In this document: positions 7,603 through 31,562 of the stretch, piece after piece | Numbering within the stretch: the first letter of the stretch is position 1 | How the letters are laid out: the number at the start of each line of letters is the position of its first letter | Origin: Nocardia farcinica | GTDB taxonomy: Bacteria > Actinomycetota > Actinomycetes > Mycobacteriales > Mycobacteriaceae | NCBI RefSeq assembly: GCF_001182745.1 | Contig: NZ_LN868939.1 | Coordinates: 1,426,001-1,490,000 of the forward strand | Length of the DNA: 64,000 bases | Reading direction: 5' to 3' | Notes under the pieces: model-generated | What the model saw: the letters and a program-made list of their open reading frames with translations, nothing else | Told to the model about the DNA's origin: nothing | Database searches by the model: none | Made by a program: the position numbers and the translations under genes

Positions 7603-8699
7603 GGGCCGCGCGCATCGCCGCCGCGGCGCTGAGCCTGGCTGTGCTGGCCGGCACCACCGGGTGCGCGGTGACCGTGGACAACGTGCCGCTGCCGAAACCG
7701 GGCATCGGCGGACCGGGCTACACCATCCACGTCGTCTTCGACGACGCGCTCAACCTGCCGGAGCGGGCCCATGTGAAGATCGGCGGCACCGACATCGGTG
7801 TGGTCGAGGAGATCAGCACCACCAACTTCCTCGCCGACGTGGAACTCGAGATCCGCGAGGACATCCGGCTGCCGCGCGGCACCACCGCCGAACTGCGCCA
7901 AGCCACGCCGCTCGGCGACATCTTCGTGGCGATGACCCTGCCCGAGCACGACCCGAACGCGCCCGTGCTCCAGCCCGGCGACACCATCGGCACCGATCTG
8001 ACCTCGGCGGGCGCGTCCGTGGAGCAGCTGATGGTCTCGATCTCCATGCTGCTCAACGGCGGCGGCCTCAACCAGGCCGCCAAGATCACCTCCGAGATGA
8101 ACTCGATGTTCGCCGGGCGCGCACCGCAACTGGCGCACCTGCTCAACGAGCTCGGCGCCGCGATCACGGCGCTGAACCAGCGCACCGCCGACATCGACAG
8201 CGTGTTGCACGGGCTCACTGTGCTCACCGGTGAAATGGCCGCGCGCAAAGCCGAACTCGGCGAAGCCGCCGACACGTTCCCGGCGCTGCTCGGCCTGGTC
8301 GCGGAGAACAACCGCGACATCTCCGCGTTGATCGGCAAGGTGTCGGTGACGATGGCCGCGCTCGGCGACTTCACCGAGACCACCGGCGGCGATTTCGTGA
8401 GCCTGTTCGACAGCATCCAGAAGCTGATGGGCGGATTCACCGCCATGGGCGACGACCTGGGCCAGATGCTGCAACGCTACGAGCAGCTCTATCCATCGAT
8501 CGCGGCGTCGTTCGAGGGTGAGGCGCTGTCGGTGGCGGCCACCGTGTCGTACCTGAGCATCGGCGCGCTCACCGACCCGTCCGGTAGCCGTCCGCCCGAA
8601 CTGAACGACGTGCCGCTGTTCATCGGCAGTCTCGCGCAGGTCATCGAGAAGGTGATCGGCAGGCTCACCAGCCCGCCGCGACAGGAGGGCGGCCGATGA
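7599..8699 (+). CDS. mceE: MceE, LprK-type Mce lipoprotein
   Basis: A 366-residue Mce lipoprotein starting at the ATG that overlaps the mceD stop. The signal sequence MRAARIAAAALSLAVLAG ends in TTGC, with Cys22 as the likely lipidated residue. The MCE domain covers about residues 40-125 (VVFDDALNLPERAHVKIGG), followed by long helices (AKITSEMNSMFAGRAPQLAH). In other actinobacteria this subunit caps or stabilises the Mce hexamer. It ends by overlapping the mceF ATG. Confidence 0.9.
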   Translation: MRAARIAAAALSLAVLAGTTGCAVTVDNVPLPKPGIGGPGYTIHVVFDDALNLPERAHVKIGGTDIGVVEEISTTNFLADVELEIREDIRLPRGTTAELRQATPLGDIFVAMTLPEHDPNAPVLQPGDTIGTDLTSAGASVEQLMVSISMLLNGGGLNQAAKITSEMNSMFAGRAPQLAHLLNELGAAITALNQRTADIDSVLHGLTVLTGEMAARKAELGEAADTFPALLGLVAENNRDISALIGKVSVTMAALGDFTETTGGDFVSLFDSIQKLMGGFTAMGDDLGQMLQRYEQLYPSIAASFEGEALSVAATVSYLSIGALTDPSGSRPPELNDVPLFIGSLAQVIEKVIGRLTSPPRQEGGR

Positions 8700-9877
8700 A
8701 CATCCCGCTGTGGAACTACCTGGTGCGCCGCCGGGTGGCGATCGCCAACCTGGGCCTGGTCGCGGTACTGCTGGCCGGGTCGGCCTACCTCGGGCTGGCC
8801 GTGCTGCGCATCAACCCGCTGCCCGACACCTACACGGTGACCGTGGAACTGAGGAACTCCGGCGGACTGCTGGCGAACAACGACGTCACCTTCCGCGGCA
8901 GCCGGGTGGGCCGGGTGGCCGAGGTCCGGGTGGCCGAGGTCGGCATCGTCGCCGAGGCCGAGATCCAGTCCTGGGCCAAGATCCCGGTCGGCGGCACCGT
9001 GGCGGTCGGGCGCCTGTCCGCCGCGGGCGAGCAGTACCTCGACTTCCGCCCGGACGCCGACAGCGGCCCCTACCTGCGCGACGGCGACGTGGTGGAGGTG
9101 GCCCGCACCACGACGCCGGTGACCGTGCCCTCGGTGCTCGACAACATGAGCGGCCTGATCGGCGGCATGAACCCGGCCCGGTTGAACGTCATCATCGACG
9201 AACTGGACAAGGCGCTGGCCGGCGGCCCGGACCGGTTGCGCAACATGATCTCCGGCATCAGCCGCGCGATGGCCGGACTGGACGAGCTGCTGCCACAGAC
9301 CAGGCAACTGATCGAGAACCTCGAGATCATCGCCGACACCACCTCGCACGCGCAGCCCGACCTGACCACCTTGACCACCGGCGCGGGCGCGCTGTTCGAG
9401 CAGCTCACCGCCGCCGACCAGGAACTGCGCCGTTTCCTCGACCTCGCGCCCGGCCAGCTGGCCACCGTCGGCGGCTTCATCGCCGACACCGAGGACCCGA
9501 TCACCAACCTGACCACCAATTTCGTGGCCATCACCCGCGCGGCGAAGCTGCGCCAGCCCGCCATCGAGGCGCTGTTCCCGGCACTGCGGGCCGGCTCGGC
9601 CGCCATCGGCGTGCCCGCGCACGACGGCGCCTACCACACCCTCGTCGACCCGTGGCCCCGCCCGACCTGCGATTACCCCACCGTCCCGAAGATCCCGGTG
9701 GTCGCCGCCACCGACAGCAGGGTGCGGCTCTACAACTACTGCGTAACCGACGATCCGGCGTTGCAGATCCGCGGCTCGGCCAACGCGCCGCGGCCGAACG
9801 TGCCCGACAACGGCTCCGGCCCGCCCCCCGGCGTGACCGGCGACGAGATGTCCCAGCCCGCCCCCACACACCGGTAG
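8696..9877 (+). CDS. mceF: MceF, Mce importer subunit
   Basis: A 393-residue Mce protein with a membrane helix at about residues 14-38, an MCE domain (VELRNSGGLLANNDVTFRGS onward, about 46-135) and a helical stalk. The C-terminal tail after about residue 335 is polar, with Pro, Asn and Thr (IRGSANAPRPNVPDN). The tail holds a Cys pair (RPTCDYP and YNYCVTD) plausibly forming a disulfide. It is the last of the six mce genes; the next gene starts 36 bp later with its own ribosome site, so the transcript probably continues. Confidence 0.9.
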   Translation: MNIPLWNYLVRRRVAIANLGLVAVLLAGSAYLGLAVLRINPLPDTYTVTVELRNSGGLLANNDVTFRGSRVGRVAEVRVAEVGIVAEAEIQSWAKIPVGGTVAVGRLSAAGEQYLDFRPDADSGPYLRDGDVVEVARTTTPVTVPSVLDNMSGLIGGMNPARLNVIIDELDKALAGGPDRLRNMISGISRAMAGLDELLPQTRQLIENLEIIADTTSHAQPDLTTLTTGAGALFEQLTAADQELRRFLDLAPGQLATVGGFIADTEDPITNLTTNFVAITRAAKLRQPAIEALFPALRAGSAAIGVPAHDGAYHTLVDPWPRPTCDYPTVPKIPVVAATDSRVRLYNYCVTDDPALQIRGSANAPRPNVPDNGSGPPPGVTGDEMSQPAPTHR

Positions 9878-9913
9878 GCCCGCGCCACGCCGGAGACAAG
9901 GAACCGAACTGCC

Positions 9914-10660
9914 ATGAGTGACAACGACGTCGACAAGGCCGCCACTCCCGAGCCGGACCGCGACGCCGCGGAACCGGCCGAGGGGGCGGGCGCGACGACC
10001 GGCTCGGCCGCGACCTCGGCGGGCAAGGACGCGACCGACGACAAGGCGGTCACGCTCGACAAGACGGAGCCGGCGGCGGCCCGAGATTCCGCCGATGATC
10101 CCGGAAAAGCCGCCGTCGCATCGGGATTCGCGGCGAAGCTGCGCTGGCCCGCAGGCCGTGCCCGCACCGTCACCGCCGGTGCGGCGGTCGCGGTGCTGGT
10201 CGGCGCGTCGGTCGGCGCGGCGGGCTGGTTCTCCAGCCAGAACAGCGAGCACGAGGGCCTGCTGGCCGCGCACGAGGAGGCCAGGCAGGCCGCCTGCGCC
10301 TACGCGCCGGTGCTGGCCGACTACGACGCGAAGAACCTCGACGCCTATTTCGCCAAGGTGCTCGACGGCGCGACCGGCGACTGGCGCAAGCAGTTCGACG
10401 ACACCAGCAGGGAACTGCGCGAGGTGCTCACCCAGGGCGAGGTGGTGTCCAAGGCCGACGACGTGCAGTGCGCGATCAAGACCGGCGACGAGACCTCCGC
10501 CGAAGCGATCGTCGTCATCGGCCAGACCATCACCAGCGTCGGCACCCAGGGCAAACCTTCGCCGGGGCAGCTGTCGATGATCATGCGGATGGAGAAGACC
10601 GACGGCCGCTGGCTGGTCAACCACGTCAACTCGCCGCTGGCCTCGGTCCCCCAGCAGTGA
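9914..10660 (+). CDS. Mce-associated membrane protein (Mam type)
   Basis: A 248-residue protein with a long charged, Ala/Glu/Asp-rich N-terminal region (1-80), one membrane helix (about 86-108, VTAGAAVAVLVGASVGAAGW) and an outer domain of about 135 residues. The outer domain has the Mam pattern: a Cys-containing helix (RQAACAYAPVLADYDAKNLD), DGATGDWRKQFDD, and C-terminal GRWLVNHVNSPL. Such proteins follow mce operons and are thought to stabilise the importer. The acidic, disordered N-terminus would lie in the cytoplasm. Only one Mam gene is present, fewer than the two to four often found. Confidence 0.82.
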   Translation: MSDNDVDKAATPEPDRDAAEPAEGAGATTGSAATSAGKDATDDKAVTLDKTEPAAARDSADDPGKAAVASGFAAKLRWPAGRARTVTAGAAVAVLVGASVGAAGWFSSQNSEHEGLLAAHEEARQAACAYAPVLADYDAKNLDAYFAKVLDGATGDWRKQFDDTSRELREVLTQGEVVSKADDVQCAIKTGDETSAEAIVVIGQTITSVGTQGKPSPGQLSMIMRMEKTDGRWLVNHVNSPLASVPQQ

Positions 10661-10724
10661 CGCCGCGCCGCCGCACCCGGTCCACGGAGTGACCCGGCGC
10701 GGCCGCCGCCCCTGCCGACCGCGC

Positions 10725-11978
10725 TCAGGCGGAGGCCGGGCGGCCGAACAGGATGACCTGCATCAGGTGGATCACCCGGGCCTGCGAGCAGATCGGGTTG
10801 TCCGGCCCCAGCCACTGGCCGATGTCGACGACCTGCGCGAGCGCGGCATGCACCAGCACGCGCGCCTCGGCGGGGGAGAGCTCCGGGCGCACCCCGACCA
10901 CCAGCTTGGCCCACTCCTCCACGTTGAGCCGCTGGATGTTCCGCAGCACCGTCCGGTCCTCCGGCGGCACGTTGCTGATCTCGGCGTAGTAGACGAAGGT
11001 CAGCTCCCGCTCGGCGAACGAGCCCGCGACATACAGCTCGATCAACGTCACCAGGGCCTGCTCGGGGCCGTCGGCGCCGGCGATCGCGGGACCGATGGCC
11101 GCCGAGACCCGATCGGCCGCCCGCCGGAACGCCGCGGCCAGGATGTCGCCCTTGCTGCGGTAGAACCGGTAGACCGCCGAGGACGCCGGTAACCCCGCGG
11201 CATTGGCGATGTCCTCCACGCTCACGTTCGGGTAGCCGCGCTCGTGGAACAGCTCGATCGAACGTTTCAGCAGCAGTTCGTGTTTGAAGGTCAACGGCAC
11301 TTCCGAGGGGGTGTGCGCCGCGGTGCGCTCGCCGATCGGCGGCAGCTCACAGGCGAGCACGGCATCCGAAGCCGAACGCAGCAACTTCGCCAAGGCGCGC
11401 ACCGGAATCGACACGTGGTGATCGGAGATGCTGCCGATCACACTGAGCACCGAGGTCGCCAGTACCGCCCGGTCCGCCCGGGACAGCTCGGGCCGGCTGT
11501 CGGCCAGCAGGGAGCGCAGCATCGCGTAGACGTCGCCGAGTTGCCCGATGAGCACCCGGTAGTCCTCGGGCCGCAGGTAGCGGGACTGCCAGCGCAGCAA
11601 CGACGCTCCGCGGCGATCGGTGATGGACCGGTCGACCAGCGCGTCGAGAATGTGCGCGAGCCGTTGCTGCGCGGGCGCGTCGAGAAGGTGCTCGGGCAGG
11701 TGGACGGCCTGCTCGCACAGCGCGCTCAAGCGCAGCGCCTCCTCCCGGAACAGCGCGTATTTGCTGGGGTAGTGGCGGTAGAGCGCGGTGGAACTGATGT
11801 CGAGGCGGGAGGCGATGTCCTCCATGCTCACCCCGTGGTAGCCGAGCGCTCCGAAGGCCTCCGCGGACGCGGCCGCGATCTGCGCACGCCGATCCCGCGG
11901 ACGTTTGCGGACCACTCGCCCGGTGACGGGATCGCCGCCTGCCGAGCCGCGTGTGGTGCGGCGTTTGTGCGCGTCCAT
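10725..11978 (-). CDS. Mce3R-like regulator with two TetR-type DNA-binding units
   Basis: A 417-residue protein about twice the usual TetR length. The first helix-turn-helix is at about residues 49-72 (VSMEDIASRLDISSTALYRH) and a second at about 248-272 (VSVEDIANAAGLPASSAVYRFY), each followed by a ligand-domain-like region. This tandem TetR architecture is that of mycobacterial Mce3R, a repressor of an mce operon and of lipid-metabolism genes. It lies tail-to-tail with the mce operon, a natural candidate for its control. The neighbour at 12146-13405 is a close paralogue. A palindrome just upstream of its start suggests autoregulation. Confidence 0.85.
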   Translation of the reverse strand: MDAHKRRTTRGSAGGDPVTGRVVRKRPRDRRAQIAAASAEAFGALGYHGVSMEDIASRLDISSTALYRHYPSKYALFREEALRLSALCEQAVHLPEHLLDAPAQQRLAHILDALVDRSITDRRGASLLRWQSRYLRPEDYRVLIGQLGDVYAMLRSLLADSRPELSRADRAVLATSVLSVIGSISDHHVSIPVRALAKLLRSASDAVLACELPPIGERTAAHTPSEVPLTFKHELLLKRSIELFHERGYPNVSVEDIANAAGLPASSAVYRFYRSKGDILAAAFRRAADRVSAAIGPAIAGADGPEQALVTLIELYVAGSFAERELTFVYYAEISNVPPEDRTVLRNIQRLNVEEWAKLVVGVRPELSPAEARVLVHAALAQVVDIGQWLGPDNPICSQARVIHLMQVILFGRPASA

Positions 11979-23306: not shown

Positions 23307-23338
23307 CTCGTAGCCGTCGACGCAGGACACGAGAGCCA

Positions 23339-23672
23339 GGGCTCATCCCCACATGCGCGGGGAGCACGGCGGCCACACCCAGAGCGAGGAAGTTGCGGCG
23401 GGCTCATCCCCGCGTGCGCGGGGAGCACGTCAAGCCGAAGAAGGCTCAGGTCACGATGCGGGGCTCATCCCCGCGTGCGCGGGGAGCACTTACCGGTCTC
23501 GTTGCGGACCAGTGTCAACCCGGGCTCATCCCCGCGTGCGCGGGGAGCACGGGCTGGCGGTCGCGGTGGGGTCCGGCGCCGGGGGCTCATCCCCGCGTGC
23601 GCGGGGAGCACCTCATGCTGTGCTCGCGGGCGGGGTTGGCCCGGGGCTCATCCCCGCGTGCGCGGGGAGCAC
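23339..23672 (-). CRISPR. Type I-E CRISPR array 1 (6 repeats, 5 spacers)
   Basis: Six 29-bp repeats start at 23339, 23400, 23461, 23522, 23583 and 23644, separated by unique 32-bp spacers (exact 61-bp period). On the plus strand each begins GGGCTCAT, has the stem CCCCGCG / CGCGGGG, and ends AGCAC, the actinobacterial type I-E class. By analogy with the E. coli repeat, the functional strand is minus (GTGCTCCCC... to ...ATGAGCCC). The leftmost repeat has three substitutions (CCCCACATGCG), as expected of the leader-distal end. No cas genes occur in the window. Confidence 0.96.
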
Positions 23673-23931: not shown

Positions 23932-25707
23932 TCAGAGTCGTTCCGGTGCGGCGATTCCCAGGAGTCCCAGGCCGTGGGCGAGGGTTCGGGCGGTGAGCTG
24001 GGTGAGGGCCAGGCGATTGTCGCGGACCTGGTCGGGGGCGGTGAGGACGGGGCAGGTGTCGTAGAAGGCCGTGAAGGCTCGGGCGAGATCGTAGAGGTGA
24101 CCGGCCAGGCGATGCGGTTCCAAGGTTGCGGCGACTTCGGTGAGCACCGTTCCATACCCATCCAGGGTGAGCGTGAGGTCTCGTTCGGCCGGCTCGAGGG
24201 ATATGCCCGAGTCCACCGAAATACTGTTGAAGTCTTCCGCTTTGCGCAGGATCGACCGGGTTCGGGCATGAGCGTATTGCAGGTAGACGCCGGTGTTGCC
24301 GTTGAGTGCGGTCATACGGGCTGGGTCGAAGGTGTAATCCTTGATCCGGCTCGTGGACAGATCCGCGTACTTCACCGCACCGATCCCGGCCTGCTCGGCA
24401 ATACGGTCGAGCTCGACCGCGGGCAGGTCGGGGTTCTTCTCGGTGACCACACTGCGGGCGGCGGTGACGGCATCGTCGAGAAGGTCCATCAGGCGGACGG
24501 TGCCGCCGGCGCGGGTCTTGAATGGTCGGCCGTCGGGGCCGAGGACGGTGCCGTACGGGACATGGTCGACGGTGACGGCGTCGGTGAGCCAGCCGGCCCG
24601 TCGCGCGGCTTCGAATACCAGCCGGAAGTGCAGGGCCTGGCGCGAGTCGGTGACATAGAGCAGTCGGTCGGCGTGCAGGTTCATGATGCGGTAGCGGATG
24701 GTGGCCAGGTCGGTGCTGTCGTAGCCGTAACCGCCGTCGCTCTTGCGAACCATCAACACCGCCGGGGCGCCGTCGGGACCGGTCACTTCTTCCGAGGCCA
24801 CCACGATTGCGCCGTCACTGTCCACGGCAACGCCCTTGTCGAGAAGCTCGGTGACAGTGTCGGCCAGCATCGGGTTGTAAAACGACTCCCCTGCATAGTC
24901 TTCTGGCCCGAGCAGCACACCCAGCCGGTCATAGATCGCGGCGAACGCTTTCTCCGACTCGGCCACGATCTCCCGCCACCGTGCCACCGTGGTCTCGTCA
25001 CCCGATTGCAGTGCGACCACGCGCCGCCGGGCGCGGTCTGCGAAGTCCGGATCGGCGTCGAACTGGGCCCGCGCGGCCTTGTACAGCGAATCCAACGCCG
25101 AAACCGCACTGATCCCACGGTCGCGGCCGAGTTCGGCTTGATGCCATGGTGTTTCGGGGTGCTCGTCGATAAATTGGATGAGCATCCCGAACTGGGTTCC
25201 CCAGTCCCCCAAATGATTCGCACGGACCACGTCCGCACCCAGAAAGTCCAGGATGCGGGCGAGGCTGTCCCCGATGATCGTGGTGCGCAGATGCCCGACG
25301 TGCATCTCCTTGGCCACGTTCGGCCCCGAATAGTCGATCACCACCCGCCGCCCGGCCTCGGCGGCGGGGACACCGAGCCGCTCATCGGCCAGCCGGGTCG
25401 CGACCTGTGACCAGATCGCGGCATCGGAGACAGTGATATTGAGGAAACCCGGTCCCGATACCGTCACAGATTCGATCACCTCGAAGCCGTCGGCGTCGAG
25501 CTGCCGTACCAGTGATTCGGCCAGGTCGACGGGCTTTGTCCCGGTTTTCTTGGCCAAAGGCAGCGCGGCGTTGGACTGGAAGTCGGCGCGGTCAGAGCGT
25601 CGCACCACCGGATCGGCTCCTGCCAGGTCGGGTCGGACTCGGCCGATCGCCTCCGCCACAACGGCAGCGACAGATCCGAGCAGCGGCATAACACCGGCAG
25701 AACTCAC
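23932..25707 (-). CDS. argS: Arginyl-tRNA synthetase (class I), cluster-associated copy
   Basis: A 591-residue class I ArgRS: N-terminal Add1-like domain (1-110), HIGH-type motif HVGH at residues 136-139, the catalytic-loop equivalent FKTRAGGTVRLMDLL in place of KMSKS (as in many ArgRS), and the all-helical anticodon-binding C-terminus (YLQYAHARTRSILRKA). The GTG at 25707 follows AAAGGA at good spacing. All catalytic landmarks are intact. The gene sits in a small operon with a nucleotidyltransferase, a methyltransferase and a PLP decarboxylase, not with housekeeping genes, so it may be a second ArgRS serving a special pathway or resistance. This cannot be proven from the window. Confidence 0.9.
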   Translation of the reverse strand: MSSAGVMPLLGSVAAVVAEAIGRVRPDLAGADPVVRRSDRADFQSNAALPLAKKTGTKPVDLAESLVRQLDADGFEVIESVTVSGPGFLNITVSDAAIWSQVATRLADERLGVPAAEAGRRVVIDYSGPNVAKEMHVGHLRTTIIGDSLARILDFLGADVVRANHLGDWGTQFGMLIQFIDEHPETPWHQAELGRDRGISAVSALDSLYKAARAQFDADPDFADRARRRVVALQSGDETTVARWREIVAESEKAFAAIYDRLGVLLGPEDYAGESFYNPMLADTVTELLDKGVAVDSDGAIVVASEEVTGPDGAPAVLMVRKSDGGYGYDSTDLATIRYRIMNLHADRLLYVTDSRQALHFRLVFEAARRAGWLTDAVTVDHVPYGTVLGPDGRPFKTRAGGTVRLMDLLDDAVTAARSVVTEKNPDLPAVELDRIAEQAGIGAVKYADLSTSRIKDYTFDPARMTALNGNTGVYLQYAHARTRSILRKAEDFNSISVDSGISLEPAERDLTLTLDGYGTVLTEVAATLEPHRLAGHLYDLARAFTAFYDTCPVLTAPDQVRDNRLALTQLTARTLAHGLGLLGIAAPERL

Positions 25708-25747
25708 CTGGGATTCCTTTCCTGAACGACAGTAGGCACCGAGTATC

Positions 25748-26473
25748 TCAGGGGCCCGTGCATACGTGAGGGGTCGTGCGGTGGGATCGGGCCGTCGCCC
25801 GAACACGGAGACCAGGAAGTACCTCGAGGTCGCCTGCTCTGACGAGCGCCGAAACTCCTGCTGCAACTGCCGAATGAAGATAGGAGCTGGATGTATATCC
25901 GAGAAAATCTTTGCCGCAGGCACCGACGGAACTTCGGGACAACGCCTCAACCGCATCCGCGATCGTAAGCGAGGGGTTGACGATCATCGAGACGGCGAGC
26001 CGGGCGATGCCGTGCTCGGCCCGTTGCCGATCGAACCGGTAGCGCTGTACGTCGCCGCCGAGGAAGATGTGCTCGCTGGTGAGTGCGTTGAGCAGCAGTC
26101 GCCGGCCGAATTCGGTCGAGTTCAGCCACCACGGTTCGACGATCACCGGTGAGGGGGCGAATCGACCGTCGACCTGGTCGAAGCACCGCAACTCCACCGC
26201 GGCATTCACATCCTCGTGGGTTGCGAAGAGCTTCGTCCGATAGTCCACCTCGGTGTCGAGGTCGAGCCCGAACGCATGGTGCAACGAGACCACCCGGCTG
26301 ATCAATGTACTCATCCGTTCACTCTCCGGCCGGTGCCGGCCGATCAGGACGAGATCGAGGTCCGAGTTCGGACCGGCGAGCCCGCTGGCATGCGAGCCGT
26401 AGGCGAGTCCGTAGCCGTCTGGAGCGAATTCCGCCGTGATGGCCGCCGCCTCAGCGAACAACTCGCCGGTCAT
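25748..26473 (-). CDS. Nucleotidyltransferase-domain protein (pol-beta fold)
   Basis: A 241-residue protein with the nucleotidyltransferase signature near its N-terminus: GS at residues 26-27 in YGSHASG and the metal-binding Asp38 and Asp40 in SDLDLVLIG. A third acidic residue may be in LDLDTEVDYRTK. The C-terminal half is helical and unrecognised. Such proteins adenylylate small molecules, antibiotics or proteins. The ATG overlaps the methyltransferase stop (ATGA), and argS starts 40 bp after its stop. The target is unknown. It is longer than the minimal MNT antitoxins and has no HEPN partner nearby. Confidence 0.75.
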   Translation of the reverse strand: MTGELFAEAAAITAEFAPDGYGLAYGSHASGLAGPNSDLDLVLIGRHRPESERMSTLISRVVSLHHAFGLDLDTEVDYRTKLFATHEDVNAAVELRCFDQVDGRFAPSPVIVEPWWLNSTEFGRRLLLNALTSEHIFLGGDVQRYRFDRQRAEHGIARLAVSMIVNPSLTIADAVEALSRSSVGACGKDFLGYTSSSYLHSAVAAGVSALVRAGDLEVLPGLRVRATARSHRTTPHVCTGP

Positions 26474-27387
26474 GGCAGTACCTGGGGCAGGGACGCGCGG
26501 GGATGGTCTGCCCGGTGGAAGTCGACCAGGTGGACGCCGCTGGGAAGTGCGACAGCGCCGTCGGGCAAGGTATGCCGGTCGATGAAGTCGTCGACGATCC
26601 GGGCCAGGTCCGGATCGTTCGTGAGCTGGGGGTGGTGTTTGAAGTGTACTCCGAAGAACCAGTCACGAGAGGCCGCCTGATCCGCTGCCAAGGCGACTCC
26701 GCCAATCCGGGTGTGGTTCAGCGTTCCTCGACCGGCCTCTTCCGACTGCCGGAGAGCATCGATCAGGAGATTGCGGGTGTAGGAGCGGCCACCTTCCGGG
26801 AAGGGCGCGACTCGTTCCCAGCCGTGGGTGACGAGTCGTTGTTCCGGGCTTTCGGCGTCGAACAACAGCACGGTCAAGTGTCCGTTCGGGGCGAGAAGGT
26901 CGATCATCTGGTGTATGAAGGAGATCGCCTGTTCCCGTGCGGAACCTGGTTCCGGGTTCGGCACGATACCGGACGCGGACAGGGTTTCGAAGAACTCGCC
27001 GAGTGGATAACTCAACGACCAGAACGCCGCCACCACATCGAAACTCGCCTGCCGGCCCTCGACGAGGAGGGCTGCGACGGCATCCCGGGTATCGGCGCAC
27101 AGTGTCCGCGCGTGCGGAAAGCCCTGGGAGACTGCGGTGATCATTGCCGGGCTGTAGTCGGCCAGGACGAGCTCACGGGCGTAGGGAGTGAGCATGTGCG
27201 TGATCCGGCCGGTGCCGCACCCGAACTCAGCGATCCGCAGTGCTGGGTCGGGAGTGCCGAACAGGTCGGTCATCCGGCGCCGTACGAGTTCGGTGTCCTC
27301 GATCCCGCCGAAGTAGTGGCGCAGCAGCAGGCGGTCGTAGACGCCCTCGGTCTCATAGACCGAGCGGAACAGATCGGTGGTCCTCAT
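26470..27387 (-). CDS. Class I SAM-dependent methyltransferase
   Basis: A 305-residue protein with SAM motif I (IAEFGCGTGRITH, about residues 52-64), an acidic motif II (LVLADYSPAMI) and a post-motif FDVVAAFWSLSYPLGEFF. The C-terminal 120 residues include a basic/aromatic run (RDWFFGVHFKHHPQL) that may shape the substrate pocket. Its ATG overlaps the stop of the decarboxylase gene, so the two are co-translated. Substrate is not predictable; a decarboxylated amine or a nucleotide-modified product of the neighbours would be logical, as inference. Confidence 0.8.
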   Translation of the reverse strand: MRTTDLFRSVYETEGVYDRLLLRHYFGGIEDTELVRRRMTDLFGTPDPALRIAEFGCGTGRITHMLTPYARELVLADYSPAMITAVSQGFPHARTLCADTRDAVAALLVEGRQASFDVVAAFWSLSYPLGEFFETLSASGIVPNPEPGSAREQAISFIHQMIDLLAPNGHLTVLLFDAESPEQRLVTHGWERVAPFPEGGRSYTRNLLIDALRQSEEAGRGTLNHTRIGGVALAADQAASRDWFFGVHFKHHPQLTNDPDLARIVDDFIDRHTLPDGAVALPSGVHLVDFHRADHPRASLPQVLP

Positions 27388-29003
27388 ACGGCACCGTCCA
27401 GGTCGGTGGCGAGGTGGTCGAGGTAGAGCACCACGTCGCGCATGTGCTCGGTGGTCAGGTGGGGATTGTTGGCCATGAGCCGCAGCGGGCGCAGGATTGC
27501 ACCAGGGCGCAGCCGACCGAGATCGTCGGGCAGGGTGAACTGATGCAGGTGCCACCGGCCTTCATCGAGCATCCGCTGATGGATGGCGAGGTTGAACGCG
27601 TTGACGGCGGCAGTGTCGGCCTCGGACAGCGGAAAGGACTTGTCGACTCCGCCGGGAAGGTAGACGAACACGACGGCCGCCAGATCGGGATCGTTGAGCC
27701 GGACGAGCCGGGGATGCGCATCGACAAGCGCGGCAAAACAACGAGCGGCCGCGACCCGCTCAGCGGCGAGAGCAGCCAAACCGGAGCGGCCACGGCCGAG
27801 CATCATCATCCACAGTTTCAGCGAACTCCAGTCCTTGGTCCCGAGAAACGGGGTGACCTGGCCGAATGCAAAATCCTCCTGCATGATCAGATCCGAATAG
27901 GTGGACACCGCCCGCAACGCCCCCGCATCGCGGACCAGCAGCGCGCTCAGCCCGTAGGGCACAGCCATGATCTTGTGGGGATCCACAGTGACGCTGTCGA
28001 ATTCCGCGATACCGTCCAGGAGTGGCCGCAACCGCGGGCTGAACGCGGCGAGCAATCCCCAGCAGGCATCGGCGTGCAGCCAGATTCGGGGATCGATCGA
28101 GCGCACAAGACCATGCACGGCACGGAGATCATCCACAGTCTGCGTGCGGCTGTCGCCGGCGTAAGCGACGACCGCCATCACCTGTCCGAGACGCTCACTC
28201 AGCGTGCGTTCGAGGGCCGCGAGGTCGTAGCGGAATCCGATGGTCGGGACTGCGATGATACGGGCGCCGCAGCCGATCCATGTCAGCGCGGCCTTGACAC
28301 TGTAGTGCCCGATTCCTTCGGGGACGACCACCGAGAGCCTCTCCGGATCGGTGACACCCGAACTCATGGTGCCGGGAGCCGCAGTCTCGCGTGCCAGCAT
28401 CATCGCGATCGTGTTGCTCATCGTCCCGCCGGGACCGATCACACCACCTACATCCCACACCGAGATCACCTTGGACACCGGCGGATTCGTGAATCCGAGA
28501 AGGTCGCGTAGCCACCGCAGGACAGTGATCTCGATGAAGGTGGCGCTGGGCGAGTCGAACGATTGGTTGATCATGTTCTGCTGGGTCAGCAGTGACAGGA
28601 CACCGCCCATGAGGGCGGCCGGGTCATCGCCGGTGTCGCCGAAACCCAGAAACCGCGGCGATGCCTCGTTCTTGCACAGTGGCAGCACCTGGTCACGGAA
28701 CTGCCGATAGACCTCCTCATACCTCATCGGTACTTCCGGGAGCTCGGTCAGCAGCAGGTCACGAATCTCGGTCGGCGGCATACGTTTGCCGTAGATATCA
28801 TCACCAACCTTGAACGCCAGACCAAGATCCAGCGCACGATGCAGCAGCTCGAGAACATCCGTCCCGGTGGCGTCCCTCGCCGAACCCGGCTGGGGGTGCT
28901 CCGGCCGGATGTATCCGTCGTCGTTTCCGGCGCCGCCGGCGCGAGCGTCCGTGCCGGCTGGTTCACTTCCGGGCAGGGGCAGGAGCGAGGTCGGTTCGAG
29001 CAT
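27384..29003 (-). CDS. PLP-dependent group II decarboxylase family protein
   Basis: A 539-residue fold-type I PLP enzyme of the glutamate/aromatic-amino-acid decarboxylase superfamily. Visible features are GGTMSNTIAMMLARE (residues 192-206, phosphate contact), His233 in EGIGHYSVKAA (stacks on the cofactor), Asp312 in HADACWG and the Schiff-base Lys344 in VTVDPHKIMAVPYG. The first 50 residues are Gly/Pro-rich and probably flexible. The start ATG follows AAAGG. As first gene of the minus operon it may supply an amine from an amino acid; arginine is tempting because of the ArgRS two genes on, but this is speculation. Confidence 0.82.
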   Translation of the reverse strand: MLEPTSLLPLPGSEPAGTDARAGGAGNDDGYIRPEHPQPGSARDATGTDVLELLHRALDLGLAFKVGDDIYGKRMPPTEIRDLLLTELPEVPMRYEEVYRQFRDQVLPLCKNEASPRFLGFGDTGDDPAALMGGVLSLLTQQNMINQSFDSPSATFIEITVLRWLRDLLGFTNPPVSKVISVWDVGGVIGPGGTMSNTIAMMLARETAAPGTMSSGVTDPERLSVVVPEGIGHYSVKAALTWIGCGARIIAVPTIGFRYDLAALERTLSERLGQVMAVVAYAGDSRTQTVDDLRAVHGLVRSIDPRIWLHADACWGLLAAFSPRLRPLLDGIAEFDSVTVDPHKIMAVPYGLSALLVRDAGALRAVSTYSDLIMQEDFAFGQVTPFLGTKDWSSLKLWMMMLGRGRSGLAALAAERVAAARCFAALVDAHPRLVRLNDPDLAAVVFVYLPGGVDKSFPLSEADTAAVNAFNLAIHQRMLDEGRWHLHQFTLPDDLGRLRPGAILRPLRLMANNPHLTTEHMRDVVLYLDHLATDLDGAV

Positions 29004-29138
29004 GCGCGACGCCTTTCGAGACGGTGGACGATGTATCCAGTAAGACAAGGCGCGCAAGGATTTTCGATCACACGGCGGGGATATCACCGGCCAGCCTGAT
29101 AATCTCGCGGCGCGATAGAACCCAGGTGGGTGTTCGGG
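29004..29138. promoter_or_regulatory. Divergent promoter region of the aaRS-containing cluster
   Basis: A 135-bp region between the decarboxylase and the HTH regulator. It contains the perfect palindrome TCGCG-G-CGCGA at 29105-29115 and a GATAAT hexamer at 29098-29103 that could serve as a -10 for the rightward gene. A palindrome overlapping or next to the promoter suggests control by the adjacent regulator. Confidence 0.45.
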
Positions 29139-29984
29139 ATGGGGGCAGCCGTGCAGGGATCCGCGTTCACGCCGGTCGTCGTGCCTGCCGAGGTGTGGGA
29201 CCGTGCAGAAGTCCGATGTCTTCTCGCCGAGCGTGATGTCGCCGGCATCCTCCGTCTGGTGCAACAGCACACCGGCGCCAGCCAGCAACGACTGGCCACT
29301 GCCCTCGCCATCTCCCAAGGCCGAATCAACGAACTGATCAACCGGCGCCGGCAAGTCACCAGCCTCAGTTCGTACCAGCGACTGGCCGACGGCCTGGGTA
29401 TGCCGGACCCGGCCCGCGTCGCCCTGGGACTCGCACCCCGGAGCGCCCCGGTGATCTCGGCCGATCCCACCGAGATCACGCACACCTACCCATCCCAAGC
29501 CGATGCTGCCGCAGATATCCGCACTGCGGTCCACGACGCTGACACTGTTGATGTCATGGCAGTGCGCGGGCTCGGCATCCTGGGGTTGAAGGACTCACTC
29601 CTGCGCGAGGTCATCCCGGCCGACGCACAGCTACGCGTCCTTCTGCTCGACCCTGACTCGGCTGCCGCCGCCTACCGTGCACAGGAGATCGGCGAATCAG
29701 CCGAGTCGTTCGCCGCCGGCATCCGCCTGGCCCTTTCACGACTGCGGGAGCTCGTCGATGCTGGACGTCGGGTCCAGATCTACCTCTACGACCACGTGCC
29801 GGTATGGCGGATCATCAGCGTCGACGGACCACACGGAACCATGTTCGTCTCCGCGTTCACCGACCACCGCGAAGCCCACGCCTGCCCCACCCAACGGATC
29901 GAACCCAATCCCAGCGGGGTCCTGCACCACGCCTTCCGCCGAACCGTGGAACAGACCGTCACCGCCGCGCACCGCGTCGTCTGA
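29139..29984 (+). CDS. XRE-type helix-turn-helix regulator with a C-terminal sensor-like domain
   Basis: A 281-residue protein. An XRE-like helix-turn-helix occupies about residues 46-85 (SQQRLATALAISQGRINELI). The rest (about 110-281) is an alpha/beta domain with VMAVRGLGILGLKDSLLREV and RRVQIYLYDHVPVWRIISVDG, which I take to be the DUF5919-like domain found in actinobacterial XRE regulators. The ATG at 29139 is nine bases behind AGGTGG; a GTG nine bases upstream is an alternative. It is divergent from the decarboxylase operon and leads a short plus operon with the CYTH and NUDIX genes, making it the likely controller of both. Confidence 0.75.
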   Translation: MGAAVQGSAFTPVVVPAEVWDRAEVRCLLAERDVAGILRLVQQHTGASQQRLATALAISQGRINELINRRRQVTSLSSYQRLADGLGMPDPARVALGLAPRSAPVISADPTEITHTYPSQADAAADIRTAVHDADTVDVMAVRGLGILGLKDSLLREVIPADAQLRVLLLDPDSAAAAYRAQEIGESAESFAAGIRLALSRLRELVDAGRRVQIYLYDHVPVWRIISVDGPHGTMFVSAFTDHREAHACPTQRIEPNPSGVLHHAFRRTVEQTVTAAHRVV

Positions 29985-30006
29985 CCAGCGACAGAAAGGC
30001 AGCACC

Positions 30007-30594
30007 GTGATCGAGGCCGAATACAAAGCCCGCCTGACCGCCCCGGACCAAGTCCGCGCCGCCCTACACGAGCGAGCCACCCCCGATACTGTGTCCTACC
30101 AGGACACCTACTACGACACCTCCACCGGCGACCTCGACCGCACCGGTCGCGAACTCCGGCTCCGCACCATCGAAGACCGCTGCGGCAACCGCCACCATGT
30201 CCTCACCTTCAAAGACCCCGCAGTCGACGAAGCGACCGGATCCAAACCCGAGTTCGAAACCCTCGTCACCGACCGCGACGGCATGCACGACATCATCACC
30301 CGACTCGGCTACCAACCCAACCTGTCCTTCACCAAACGCTGCGAAAACTTCCAGTTCACCGCCGCCGGCAGGCGCATGCTCGCCACCATCGCCCAGGTCC
30401 CGGAAATCGACGGCACCTACCTCGAGCTCGAAACCCAAGCCGAAGAACCCGACCTGCCCCAAGCCTTCGCAGAACTGCGCGCGATCCTCACAGAACTCGG
30501 CGTCACCCCAGAGGAATTGACCACCGAGCTGTACACCGACGCAGTCCGACACGCACGCCAACCGTCGGCTGCTCCTTCCGGGCGAAATGGATGA
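30007..30594 (+). CDS. CYTH-domain protein (class IV adenylate cyclase / triphosphatase fold)
   Basis: A 195-residue protein starting at GTG behind AGAAAGG. The CYTH hallmark ExExK is present as EAEYK at residues 3-7, followed by basic and acidic tunnel residues: RELRLR, LTFKDP, KPEFET and LELETQ. These chelate metal and bind triphosphate. Members are adenylate cyclases, thiamine triphosphatases or inorganic triphosphatases, and sequence alone does not say which. It lies 22 bp after the HTH gene and overlaps the NUDIX start (ATGA), so the three were one operon. Confidence 0.8.
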   Translation: MIEAEYKARLTAPDQVRAALHERATPDTVSYQDTYYDTSTGDLDRTGRELRLRTIEDRCGNRHHVLTFKDPAVDEATGSKPEFETLVTDRDGMHDIITRLGYQPNLSFTKRCENFQFTAAGRRMLATIAQVPEIDGTYLELETQAEEPDLPQAFAELRAILTELGVTPEELTTELYTDAVRHARQPSAAPSGRNG

Positions 30595-30815
30595 ACCTGA
30601 TGCCGACCCGCCTCGAAGACCTCACCGCCCGAGCCGAATGCGACGGCGTCCAGCAACTCGTCGTCGGCGCGATCGTGGAACACGACGGCCGCATCCTGCT
30701 GCTGCGCCGACCCGGCAACGACTTCATGGGCGGCATCTGGGAACTGCCCAGCGGCAAAGTCGACGAGGTCGAAGAGGAAACCGGCCTCCGGGTTACCGGC
30801 GTCAACCGCTACATT
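30591..30815 (+). pseudogene. NUDIX hydrolase remnant truncated at CRISPR array 2
   Basis: The ATG at 30591 opens a NUDIX-like N-terminus (QQLVVGAIVEHDGRILLLRR, then GGIWELPSGKVDE). The Nudix box should read G-x5-E-x7-REU-x-EE-x-GU. Here GKVDE is joined directly to VEEETGLRV, so roughly a dozen residues carrying the first Glu region and RE are missing in frame. After VTGVNRYI the homology stops at about 30813, and the frame runs into CRISPR repeats, so at least half the domain is lost. It is very likely inactive. The break coincides with the leader-distal end of array 2. Confidence 0.75.
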
Positions 30816-30923: not shown

Positions 30924-31562
30924 GGGCTCGTCCCCGCGTGCGCGGGGAGCACTGCGGCGTGCCGAAACGGGGAATCGAGCAGCCGGGCTCATCCCCGCGT
31001 GCGCGGGGAGCACTTGAGGCTGGAGCGGGAACTCCGGCCTCAAGGGGGCTCATCCCCGCTTGCGCGGGGAGCACTTCGACAATGTGCCTCGCGTGCGCGA
31101 TTTGTGGGGCTCATCCCCGCGTGCGCGGGGAGCACGCTGACCTGACCAGGACATTCCCCGTGACGCCGGGCTCATCCCCGCGTGCGCGGGGAGCACCGGG
31201 GCACGGTGGTCGGGCCGCCTCGAGGACTGGGCTCATCCCCGCGTGCGCGGGGAGCACACCGGCACGCTGCTCGACGGCTTTCTGAGCTGGGGCTCATCCC
31301 CGCGTGCGCGGGGAGCACACCTACGAGGTCCCTGACCCCGACGGCGGCGAGGGCTCATCCCCGCGTGCGCGGGGAGCACCGCAGGGTGTTCGTGAACAGC
31401 GTGTGCGACCTGGGCTCATCCCCGCGTGCGCGGGGAGCACGTCGAGGGGGTGCGGGTGCCCGCGGCGCCGCCGGGCTCATCCCCGCGTGCGCGGGGAGCA
31501 CAGCAATGTTTTCACGACCTTCGAGCACCGCCTGGGCTCATCCCCGCGTGCGCGGGGAGCAC
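30924..31562 (-). CRISPR. Type I-E CRISPR array 2 (11 repeats, 10 spacers, plus decayed tail)
   Basis: Eleven 29-bp repeats at 61-bp intervals start at 30924, 30985, 31046, 31107, 31168, 31229, 31290, 31351, 31412, 31473 and 31534. The sequence is the same as in array 1, with single changes at the left end (GGGCTCGT at 30924; CGCTTGCG at 31046). Spacers are all 32 bp and none is shared with array 1. A twelfth, degenerate repeat precedes them. Orientation is the same as array 1, with the leader on the right, so transcription runs leftward toward the NUDIX remnant. No cas genes are nearby. Confidence 0.96.

Follow-up and report, generated by a model that had tools for sequence, protein, structure and literature searches.

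A 64,000-nucleotide stretch of Nocardia farcinica DNA (assembly GCF_001182745.1, contig NZ_LN868939.1, positions 1,426,001 to 1,490,000; hereafter the window) holds a compact operon in which genes for a pyridoxal phosphate (PLP)-dependent decarboxylase, an S-adenosylmethionine (SAM)-dependent methyltransferase and a nucleotidyltransferase (NTase) are joined to one for an arginyl-tRNA synthetase, which we term ArgRS-2 to set it apart from ArgRS-1, the second such enzyme of the same genome. This cluster is real, conserved and, as far as our searches reach, undescribed, and it would be a variant of the clusters that carry a self-resistant synthetase. On balance we think it probable that it is a miniature biosynthetic cluster whose product, an arginine analogue linked to a nucleotide, would poison ArgRS-1, with ArgRS-2 conferring self-resistance. 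Among the roles put forward in an initial annotation of this DNA, an arginine-derived metabolite with a self-resistance ArgRS is the one that fits best.

Scanning our collection of genome contigs with the decarboxylase gave 24 loci, and all four genes occur together in 18 of them, which upholds the initial view that this is not a housekeeping arrangement; we call the combination of decarboxylase, methyltransferase, NTase and ArgRS-2 type A. Gene order and orientation are identical in 16 of these 18 loci, the same succession of genes is found in several actinobacterial families, and the linkage outlasts rearrangement, the ArgRS gene lying 3.3 kb upstream in L022 and being inverted in L025. With the window, L031, L088, L093 and L113 added to the 18, the type A loci number 23 (L090, on the same contig as L010, was left out of trees and counts). 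The pairwise distances of the four proteins correlate at 0.89–0.93 over 17 loci, which none of 2000 permutations equalled and to which species history contributes. The remaining six decarboxylase loci are from Streptomyces and Kitasatospora. Their decarboxylases are of the same family (56–61% identical) and stand in small metabolite-like operons, but the methyltransferase and ArgRS-2 are absent from the fetched flanks, and the NTase is kept in three. The related decarboxylase is accompanied by an aminotransferase and an MFS transporter in L013, L015 and plasmid L119 (a histidinol-phosphate-type transaminase in L119), and by an NTase and a phosphotransferase in L016, L019, L021 and plasmid L120; L023 also has the decarboxylase. 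For the two plasmids, which are Streptomyces NZ_CP108839.1 and NZ_CP108746.1 respectively, the absences are read from incomplete gene tables.

The distribution of type A is sporadic. Among 150 Nocardia genomes the methyltransferase is present in 14, of which 11 have type A and three a second architecture, type B, and in all of these it lies within 4 kb of ArgRS-2; a decarboxylase of type A strength (above 890 bits) was found in 11 of the 150, and four more have only a weaker relative, at about 440 bits. Only one of 396 genomes sampled from the phylum, namely the window's own, has the methyltransferase. A protein search in which the 7999 candidates sharing most words were scored gave at least 154 relatives of the methyltransferase with E-values no higher than 1e-20, 120 of them among the matches listed. 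Type A genes are also found in broken form: in L088 one 396-residue transposase open frame (PF01609) is inserted in both the decarboxylase and the NTase, the adjoining ArgRS-2 being intact, and there are split frames in L093 and L027 and a split NTase in L026. An apparent decarboxylase–methyltransferase fusion (P0022) looks like a frameshift near the decarboxylase end and was not used as evidence.

Type B was found in three Nocardia (L038, L039 and L040). Its ArgRS-2 is 61–62% identical to that of the window and its methyltransferase 41–43% identical; an NTase was detected in L038 and L039 and none in L040. In place of the decarboxylase, type B holds an aldehyde dehydrogenase homologue (PF00171 in L038) and a free-standing open frame of 494–514 residues, which comprises an ArgRS catalytic domain alone (PF00750, 57 bits in L038) with a HIGH motif that we read as HLGS. 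The solved relatives of this ArgRS-like protein are ArgRSs (best 42 bits); scoring 7996 candidates gave 24 relatives with E-values no higher than 1e-5, and judged by their domain lists the five weakest resemble ordinary ArgRSs. We consider that this domain probably has a biosynthetic job. Divergently placed neighbours include a phosphotriesterase gene at all three loci and a deaminase gene in L038 and L039, and L038 has a NUDIX gene nearby. In our view, the best hint that the product class is set by what the two types share is that two different first steps are combined with an NTase, a methyltransferase and an ArgRS-2 of like kinds.

Judged by its sequence, ArgRS-2 looks like a working ArgRS. 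It passes the TIGR00456 argS equivalog cut-off (454.4 bits against 261.65), aligns with the best solved ArgRS, which we take to be the E. coli enzyme, at 47.5% identity over 551 columns, keeps the HVGH motif and retains the residues that bind arginine. Six signature positions separate it from other ArgRSs of its type, none of them interpretable as a resistance site. A second, housekeeping-type argS, whose existence in the host had been envisaged at the outset, was indeed found in the same genome (6.46 Mb, the window being on contig C2): ArgRS-1, on contig C1, has 552 residues and a KMSK motif and is 30% identical to ArgRS-2. It is matched in all 150 Nocardia genomes with E-values of 1e-100 or lower, the match being only partial in the listed rows for three (G040, G109 and G130). 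An ArgRS-2 profile matched 66 of the 150 genomes at E 1e-60 or better, and 54 of them, with 57 copies, at 900 bits or more; the other matches are fragments or copies of about 700 bits, and seven such copies in our tree sit outside the ArgRS-2 clade. The possession of three domains, the frequent occurrence of ArgRS-2 on its own and its being in some genomes the only intact ArgRS found are as expected for a translation enzyme. Three features known from clusters with a self-resistant duplicate synthetase are present, namely a housekeeping copy elsewhere, a full-length diverged second copy and conserved linkage to putative biosynthetic genes.

As many as 43 of the 57 Nocardia copies lie outside types A and B, and 42 of these orphan loci were fetched, the copy in G106 being left out. 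Their neighbours vary between subclades and are common within some (for example L069–L072). NTase C-terminal remnants stand directly upstream of ArgRS-2 in L044 (54 residues, 50%) and L049 (53 residues, 60%). In L045, which starts at a contig end, the upstream NTase remnant has 62 residues (89%), and this locus may be a type A cluster cut by the contig end; a search of its genome found no methyltransferase or decarboxylase of the type A kind. One weak methyltransferase match in L076 was not counted as a remnant. The orphan L054 is the second ArgRS-2 of a genome with a type A cluster, and has XRE, CYTH and NUDIX genes alongside and none of the three enzymes. A quick ArgRS tree, with some long branches, placed 83 ArgRS-2 rows (23 of type A, three of type B and 57 orphans, 15 of the orphans from outside Nocardia) on one side of a branch with a Shimodaira–Hasegawa-like approximate likelihood ratio (SH-aLRT) of 99, and 17 other ArgRSs of this type on the opposite side. 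The clade of cluster-linked ArgRSs that the initial annotation had considered does not emerge from this tree: types A and B are scattered, type A with 15 changes against a shuffled mean of 20.8, and one clade of A and B is rejected (approximately unbiased test, p 0.0002). Our reading is that the putative biosynthetic genes were lost repeatedly and ArgRS-2 was retained, repeated gain being the alternative. Two small genes, F9 and F34, were seen beside type A operons and orphan ArgRS-2 copies (L011, L012, L017, L049 and L054); they have no Pfam match in L011, and F34 was not called in L012.

Outside Nocardia, ArgRS-1 is full or nearly full in 13 of 22 genomes tested. Five genomes of the Frankia family (f92; G616, G557, G829, G703 and G633) match ArgRS-1 at its two ends only, with the catalytic core absent, and in them no intact ArgRS other than ArgRS-2 was found. 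Their core-less open frames have about 350–395 residues (loci L122, L123 and L124), and three of these genomes were checked for this form by tblastn. The ArgRS-1 search gave no match in G680, G865 and G739, the last of which we take for a Streptomyces, a genus that probably has an E. coli-type ArgRS of its own, and in G632 only a weak match to that genome's other ArgRS. Of the curated models, 'ArgS-related anticodon-binding protein NrtL' fits the 348-residue core-less frame of G616 best; the match spans the whole length and scores below cut-off (276.8 against 340 bits). Since NrtL is a named family, the core-less protein may serve a function in its own right and is not necessarily a relic; a search of the open-access literature on NrtL gave nothing related among the matches listed. 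G616 also has a third ArgRS-like gene (L121, about 7900–11450), which is interrupted by an IS66-type transposase open frame.

Re-derivation from the sequence, together with Pfam, confirmed the layout first described for the window, in which the decarboxylase and methyltransferase genes, and the methyltransferase and NTase genes, overlap by 4 bp, a 40-bp gap separates the NTase from ArgRS-2, and XRE, CYTH and broken NUDIX genes diverge from the operon (Table 1). Decarboxylase searches were run with the frame 27384–28961 (525 residues). Its D327-P328-H329-K330 motif is invariant across 24 aligned rows. The Pfam match of the NTase is marginal (22.0 bits, the cut-off being 21); Foldseek returned nothing for this protein at E 0.001 or better, and the top rows of a structural comparison (VIA) were Tam41, MntA and AadA, which do not fix its substrate. 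The predicted-structure model of the methyltransferase has a predicted local distance difference test (pLDDT) score of 90.2, and sequence searches against solved structures gave only weak matches for the methyltransferase and the NTase. Relative to its counterpart in L004, the NUDIX remnant has an 11-residue gap within the NUDIX box, and the match ends at residue 86 of 148, close to the start of an array of clustered regularly interspaced short palindromic repeats (CRISPR array B). The G+C content of the block is about 65%, against about 71% in its surroundings. Adjoining this island is an open frame of 9397 residues (32917–61110), which by eye reads as a very large nonribosomal peptide synthetase.

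Table 1. Genes and other elements of the block, in window coordinates
Feature	Position	Strand	Remarks
ArgRS-2 gene	23932–25707	−	GTG start, 591 residues; N-terminal, catalytic and DALR domains (Pfam)
NTase, PF01909-like	25748–26473	−	motif YGSHA...SDLDL...DTEV present
Class I SAM-dependent methyltransferase	26470–27387	−	305 residues; Methyltransf_12, 1.4e-9
Group II PLP-dependent decarboxylase	27384–about 29003	−	PF00282, 1.9e-38; likely ATG at 29003, 539 residues
XRE regulator	29130 (or 29139)–29984	+	weak DUF5919 match (Pfam); homologues in L004, L005, L054
CYTH-domain protein	30007–30594	+	GTG start, 195 residues; PF01928, 6.8e-19
NUDIX gene remnant	30591–about 30815	+	Pfam; comparison with L004 relative
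Promoter-like element CTGAGATACT	25742–25751	−	44 nt upstream of ArgRS-2; elements like it also at orphan loci
Inverted repeat TATCA-N10-TGATA, candidate operator	29082–29101		divergent region, between XRE and divergent gene
CRISPR array A	23338–23672		61-nt period; leader-like stretch on right; outside proposed system
CRISPR array B	30924–31562		61-nt period; leader-like stretch on right; outside proposed system

Two candidate regulatory elements were noted. In the 70 nt before ArgRS-2, a pattern CTGnGAyAnT (y = C or T) is present at 13 of 22 type A loci and at 30 of 58 orphan loci, L113 (type A) being counted here among the orphans and two positions having been relaxed by the script; it was found in none of three type B loci, 17 outgroup loci and 709 control windows. 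The occurrence of such an element at about half of the loci suggests that ArgRS-2 often has its own predicted promoter within the operon. The idea of a shared operator received some encouragement from the inverted repeat TATCA-N10-TGATA, which is present in the divergent regions of the window, L004, L005 and L054 and at no other independent locus of 118 (L029 being the same locus as L005), with a chance expectation of 0.01 per 64-kb window. Helix-turn-helix (HTH) proteins of several architectures are encoded near 18 of the 23 type A loci. Pfam recognised eleven of these at an E-value of 0.01 or lower, in several cases with scores under the curated cut-off (the window, L006, L007, L009, L011, L014, L018, L022, L024, L026 and L093), and another seven were identified as homologues of proteins of this sort (L004, L005, L012, L017, L020, L025 and L031), the call in L025 resting on a below-cut-off match in L023; the remaining five loci were not all scanned. 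Two divergent neighbours of type A operons are HTH fusions, with a peptide deformylase domain in L006 (3693–5297) and with an FGE-sulfatase-type domain in L018 (7962–8891).

In known systems a comparable logic has been described. The producers of albomycin, mupirocin and indolmycin carry a second, insensitive synthetase of about 30% identity, according to PMC9437257; the cluster shares with these SerRS, IleRS and TrpRS systems a full-length second synthetase of about that identity and a housekeeping copy elsewhere, and differs in that the synthetase is an ArgRS, the insensitivity of which would follow by analogy, and in the make-up and size of the three-enzyme set. Agrocin 84 is a nucleotide aminoacyl-adenylate mimic to which the resistant LeuRS AgnB2 gives immunity, according to PMC5059758 and PMC7916415; the logic proposed here is the same, and it is by logic alone that we liken the two, agrocin 84 belonging to Agrobacterium and to LeuRS. 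The microcin C family likewise comprises nucleotide-linked synthetase inhibitors, and a HIT-domain gene adjoining ArgRS-2 in L025 recalls MccH-type immunity, HIT hydrolases being reported to cleave the microcin C phosphoramide (PMC7157772); unlike in that family, no ThiF-type adenylyltransferase (MccB) is found among the seven window proteins. The main text of PMC9437257 does not mention 'ArgRS', and 'arginyl' appears in it a single time, among the references. Our search of an open-access library found no ArgRS-targeting or ArgRS self-resistance cluster among the papers listed, judged by title or opening of the abstract.

By such precedent, the decarboxylase would modify arginine, or a compound closely resembling it, at the carboxyl end, a step that in type B the ArgRS-like domain and the dehydrogenase would perform instead; the NTase would add a nucleotidyl group and the methyltransferase would cap the product. 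The product would then mimic arginyl-adenylate and block the ArgRS-1 of competitors, while the strongly diverged ArgRS-2 would keep the producer translating. Where they are present, NUDIX, HIT, CYTH or phosphotriesterase neighbours would clear stray product, and XRE-type regulators would turn the cluster on.

Several observations weigh against a biosynthetic cluster of this kind. The nature of the product, its target, the insensitivity of ArgRS-2 and the chemistry are all drawn from precedent, and the closest curated models of the decarboxylase are those for aspartate and diaminobutyrate decarboxylases, all below cut-off. NUDIX and HIT neighbours are present in a minority of loci only, and no recurring exporter was noticed among the type A neighbour families, in which transporters were not specifically searched for. 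The type A label does not map on the ArgRS tree as a single gain, with its 15 changes, and no remnant of the three enzymes is found at 39 of the 42 fetched Nocardia orphans; remnants being this rare, loss is shown for a few orphans only. As to the regulatory elements, the promoter-like pattern was derived from the same sequences in which it was counted and is absent from nine of 22 type A and all three type B loci, and the inverted repeat was chosen after seeing the alignment and counted in the same sequences.

ArgRS-2 might instead be a biosynthetic partner, its arginyl-tRNA or arginyl-AMP serving as the substrate of a pathway to a tRNA-dependent product or a tRNA modification. The methyltransferase and ArgRS are jointly present (18) or jointly absent (6) in the 24 fetched loci, as such a partnership would have it, and the probable biosynthetic job of the type B catalytic domain points the same way; yet type B holds a full ArgRS-2 besides that domain, ArgRS-2 has all three of its domains, is solitary in many genomes and is sometimes the only intact ArgRS found, and among the window's proteins we recognised no transferase that depends on aminoacyl-tRNA. 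We regard this explanation as unlikely while giving it real weight, and the tRNA-dependent modification raised in the initial annotation is not favoured. It is about as unlikely that ArgRS-2 shields its host from an outside poison, an arginine analogue or ArgRS inhibitor made by others, which the three enzymes would detoxify by decarboxylation, nucleotidylation and methylation: a tight operon of three overlapping genes seems more than detoxification requires, and type B swaps the first step only.

A defence or stress system was also considered, given the CRISPR flanks, the NUDIX and CYTH genes and the MNT-like NTase. Arrays A and B flank the low-G+C island on both sides with the same repeat, which we take to resemble type I-E, in the same orientation and with leader-like stretches 87% similar; more arrays of this repeat lie at about 2.14–2.28 Mb of contig C2, some 0.7 Mb away. 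An array of this repeat type, the only type sought, is present in the fetched flanks of just two of the 23 type A loci (the window and L009), so that CRISPR is unsupported as a part of the system and the arrays look incidental. The NTase fold is similar to the MNT type, and PADLOC-DB 2023 gave single weak partial matches only, the best being mad2 at 40.1 bits, to the methyltransferase domain; the seven window proteins contain no domain of toxin, nuclease or HEPN type that scores above cut-off, and the decarboxylase does not fit a defensive role, which we therefore hold to be very improbable. Of the seven families that had been proposed to travel together, the four-gene operon does so and the XRE–CYTH part does not: this pair is found at three of the 23 type A loci (the window, L004 and L005) and beside the orphan L054, other loci having other HTH proteins, and we rejected a seven-gene unit, the XRE–CYTH–NUDIX set being a local module. 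Mere coincidence, in which ArgRS adjoins unrelated genes, can draw on the differing neighbours of most Nocardia ArgRS-2 copies between subclades and is scarcely credible in the face of a gene order conserved over several families and surviving rearrangement, the 18 of 24 co-occurrences, the correlated protein distances and the methyltransferase, NTase and ArgRS-2 common to two cluster architectures.

Returning to a cluster that makes an ArgRS poison and carries its own resistant ArgRS, a wider scenario can be put forward tentatively, and we would not call it probable: at least two alternative pathways would make arginyl-adenylate mimics, their clusters being the earliest of natural origin known to us to be directed at ArgRS, and the resulting pressure would have spread resistant ArgRS to about one third of Nocardia species. 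In some lineages of the Frankia family the resistant enzyme would have replaced the ancestral ArgRS, which would afterwards have lost its catalytic core, so that self-resistance would act as a motor of synthetase turnover. If the proposal is true, ArgRS would join the synthetases with a dedicated natural inhibitor, three short genes would be enough for a testable pathway, and a decarboxylase or an ArgRS-like domain beside ArgRS-2 would provide a search handle for an unexplored class of compounds. It would also explain the presence of two arginyl-tRNA synthetases in so many Nocardia, and would tie antibiotic self-resistance to the replacement of an essential enzyme.

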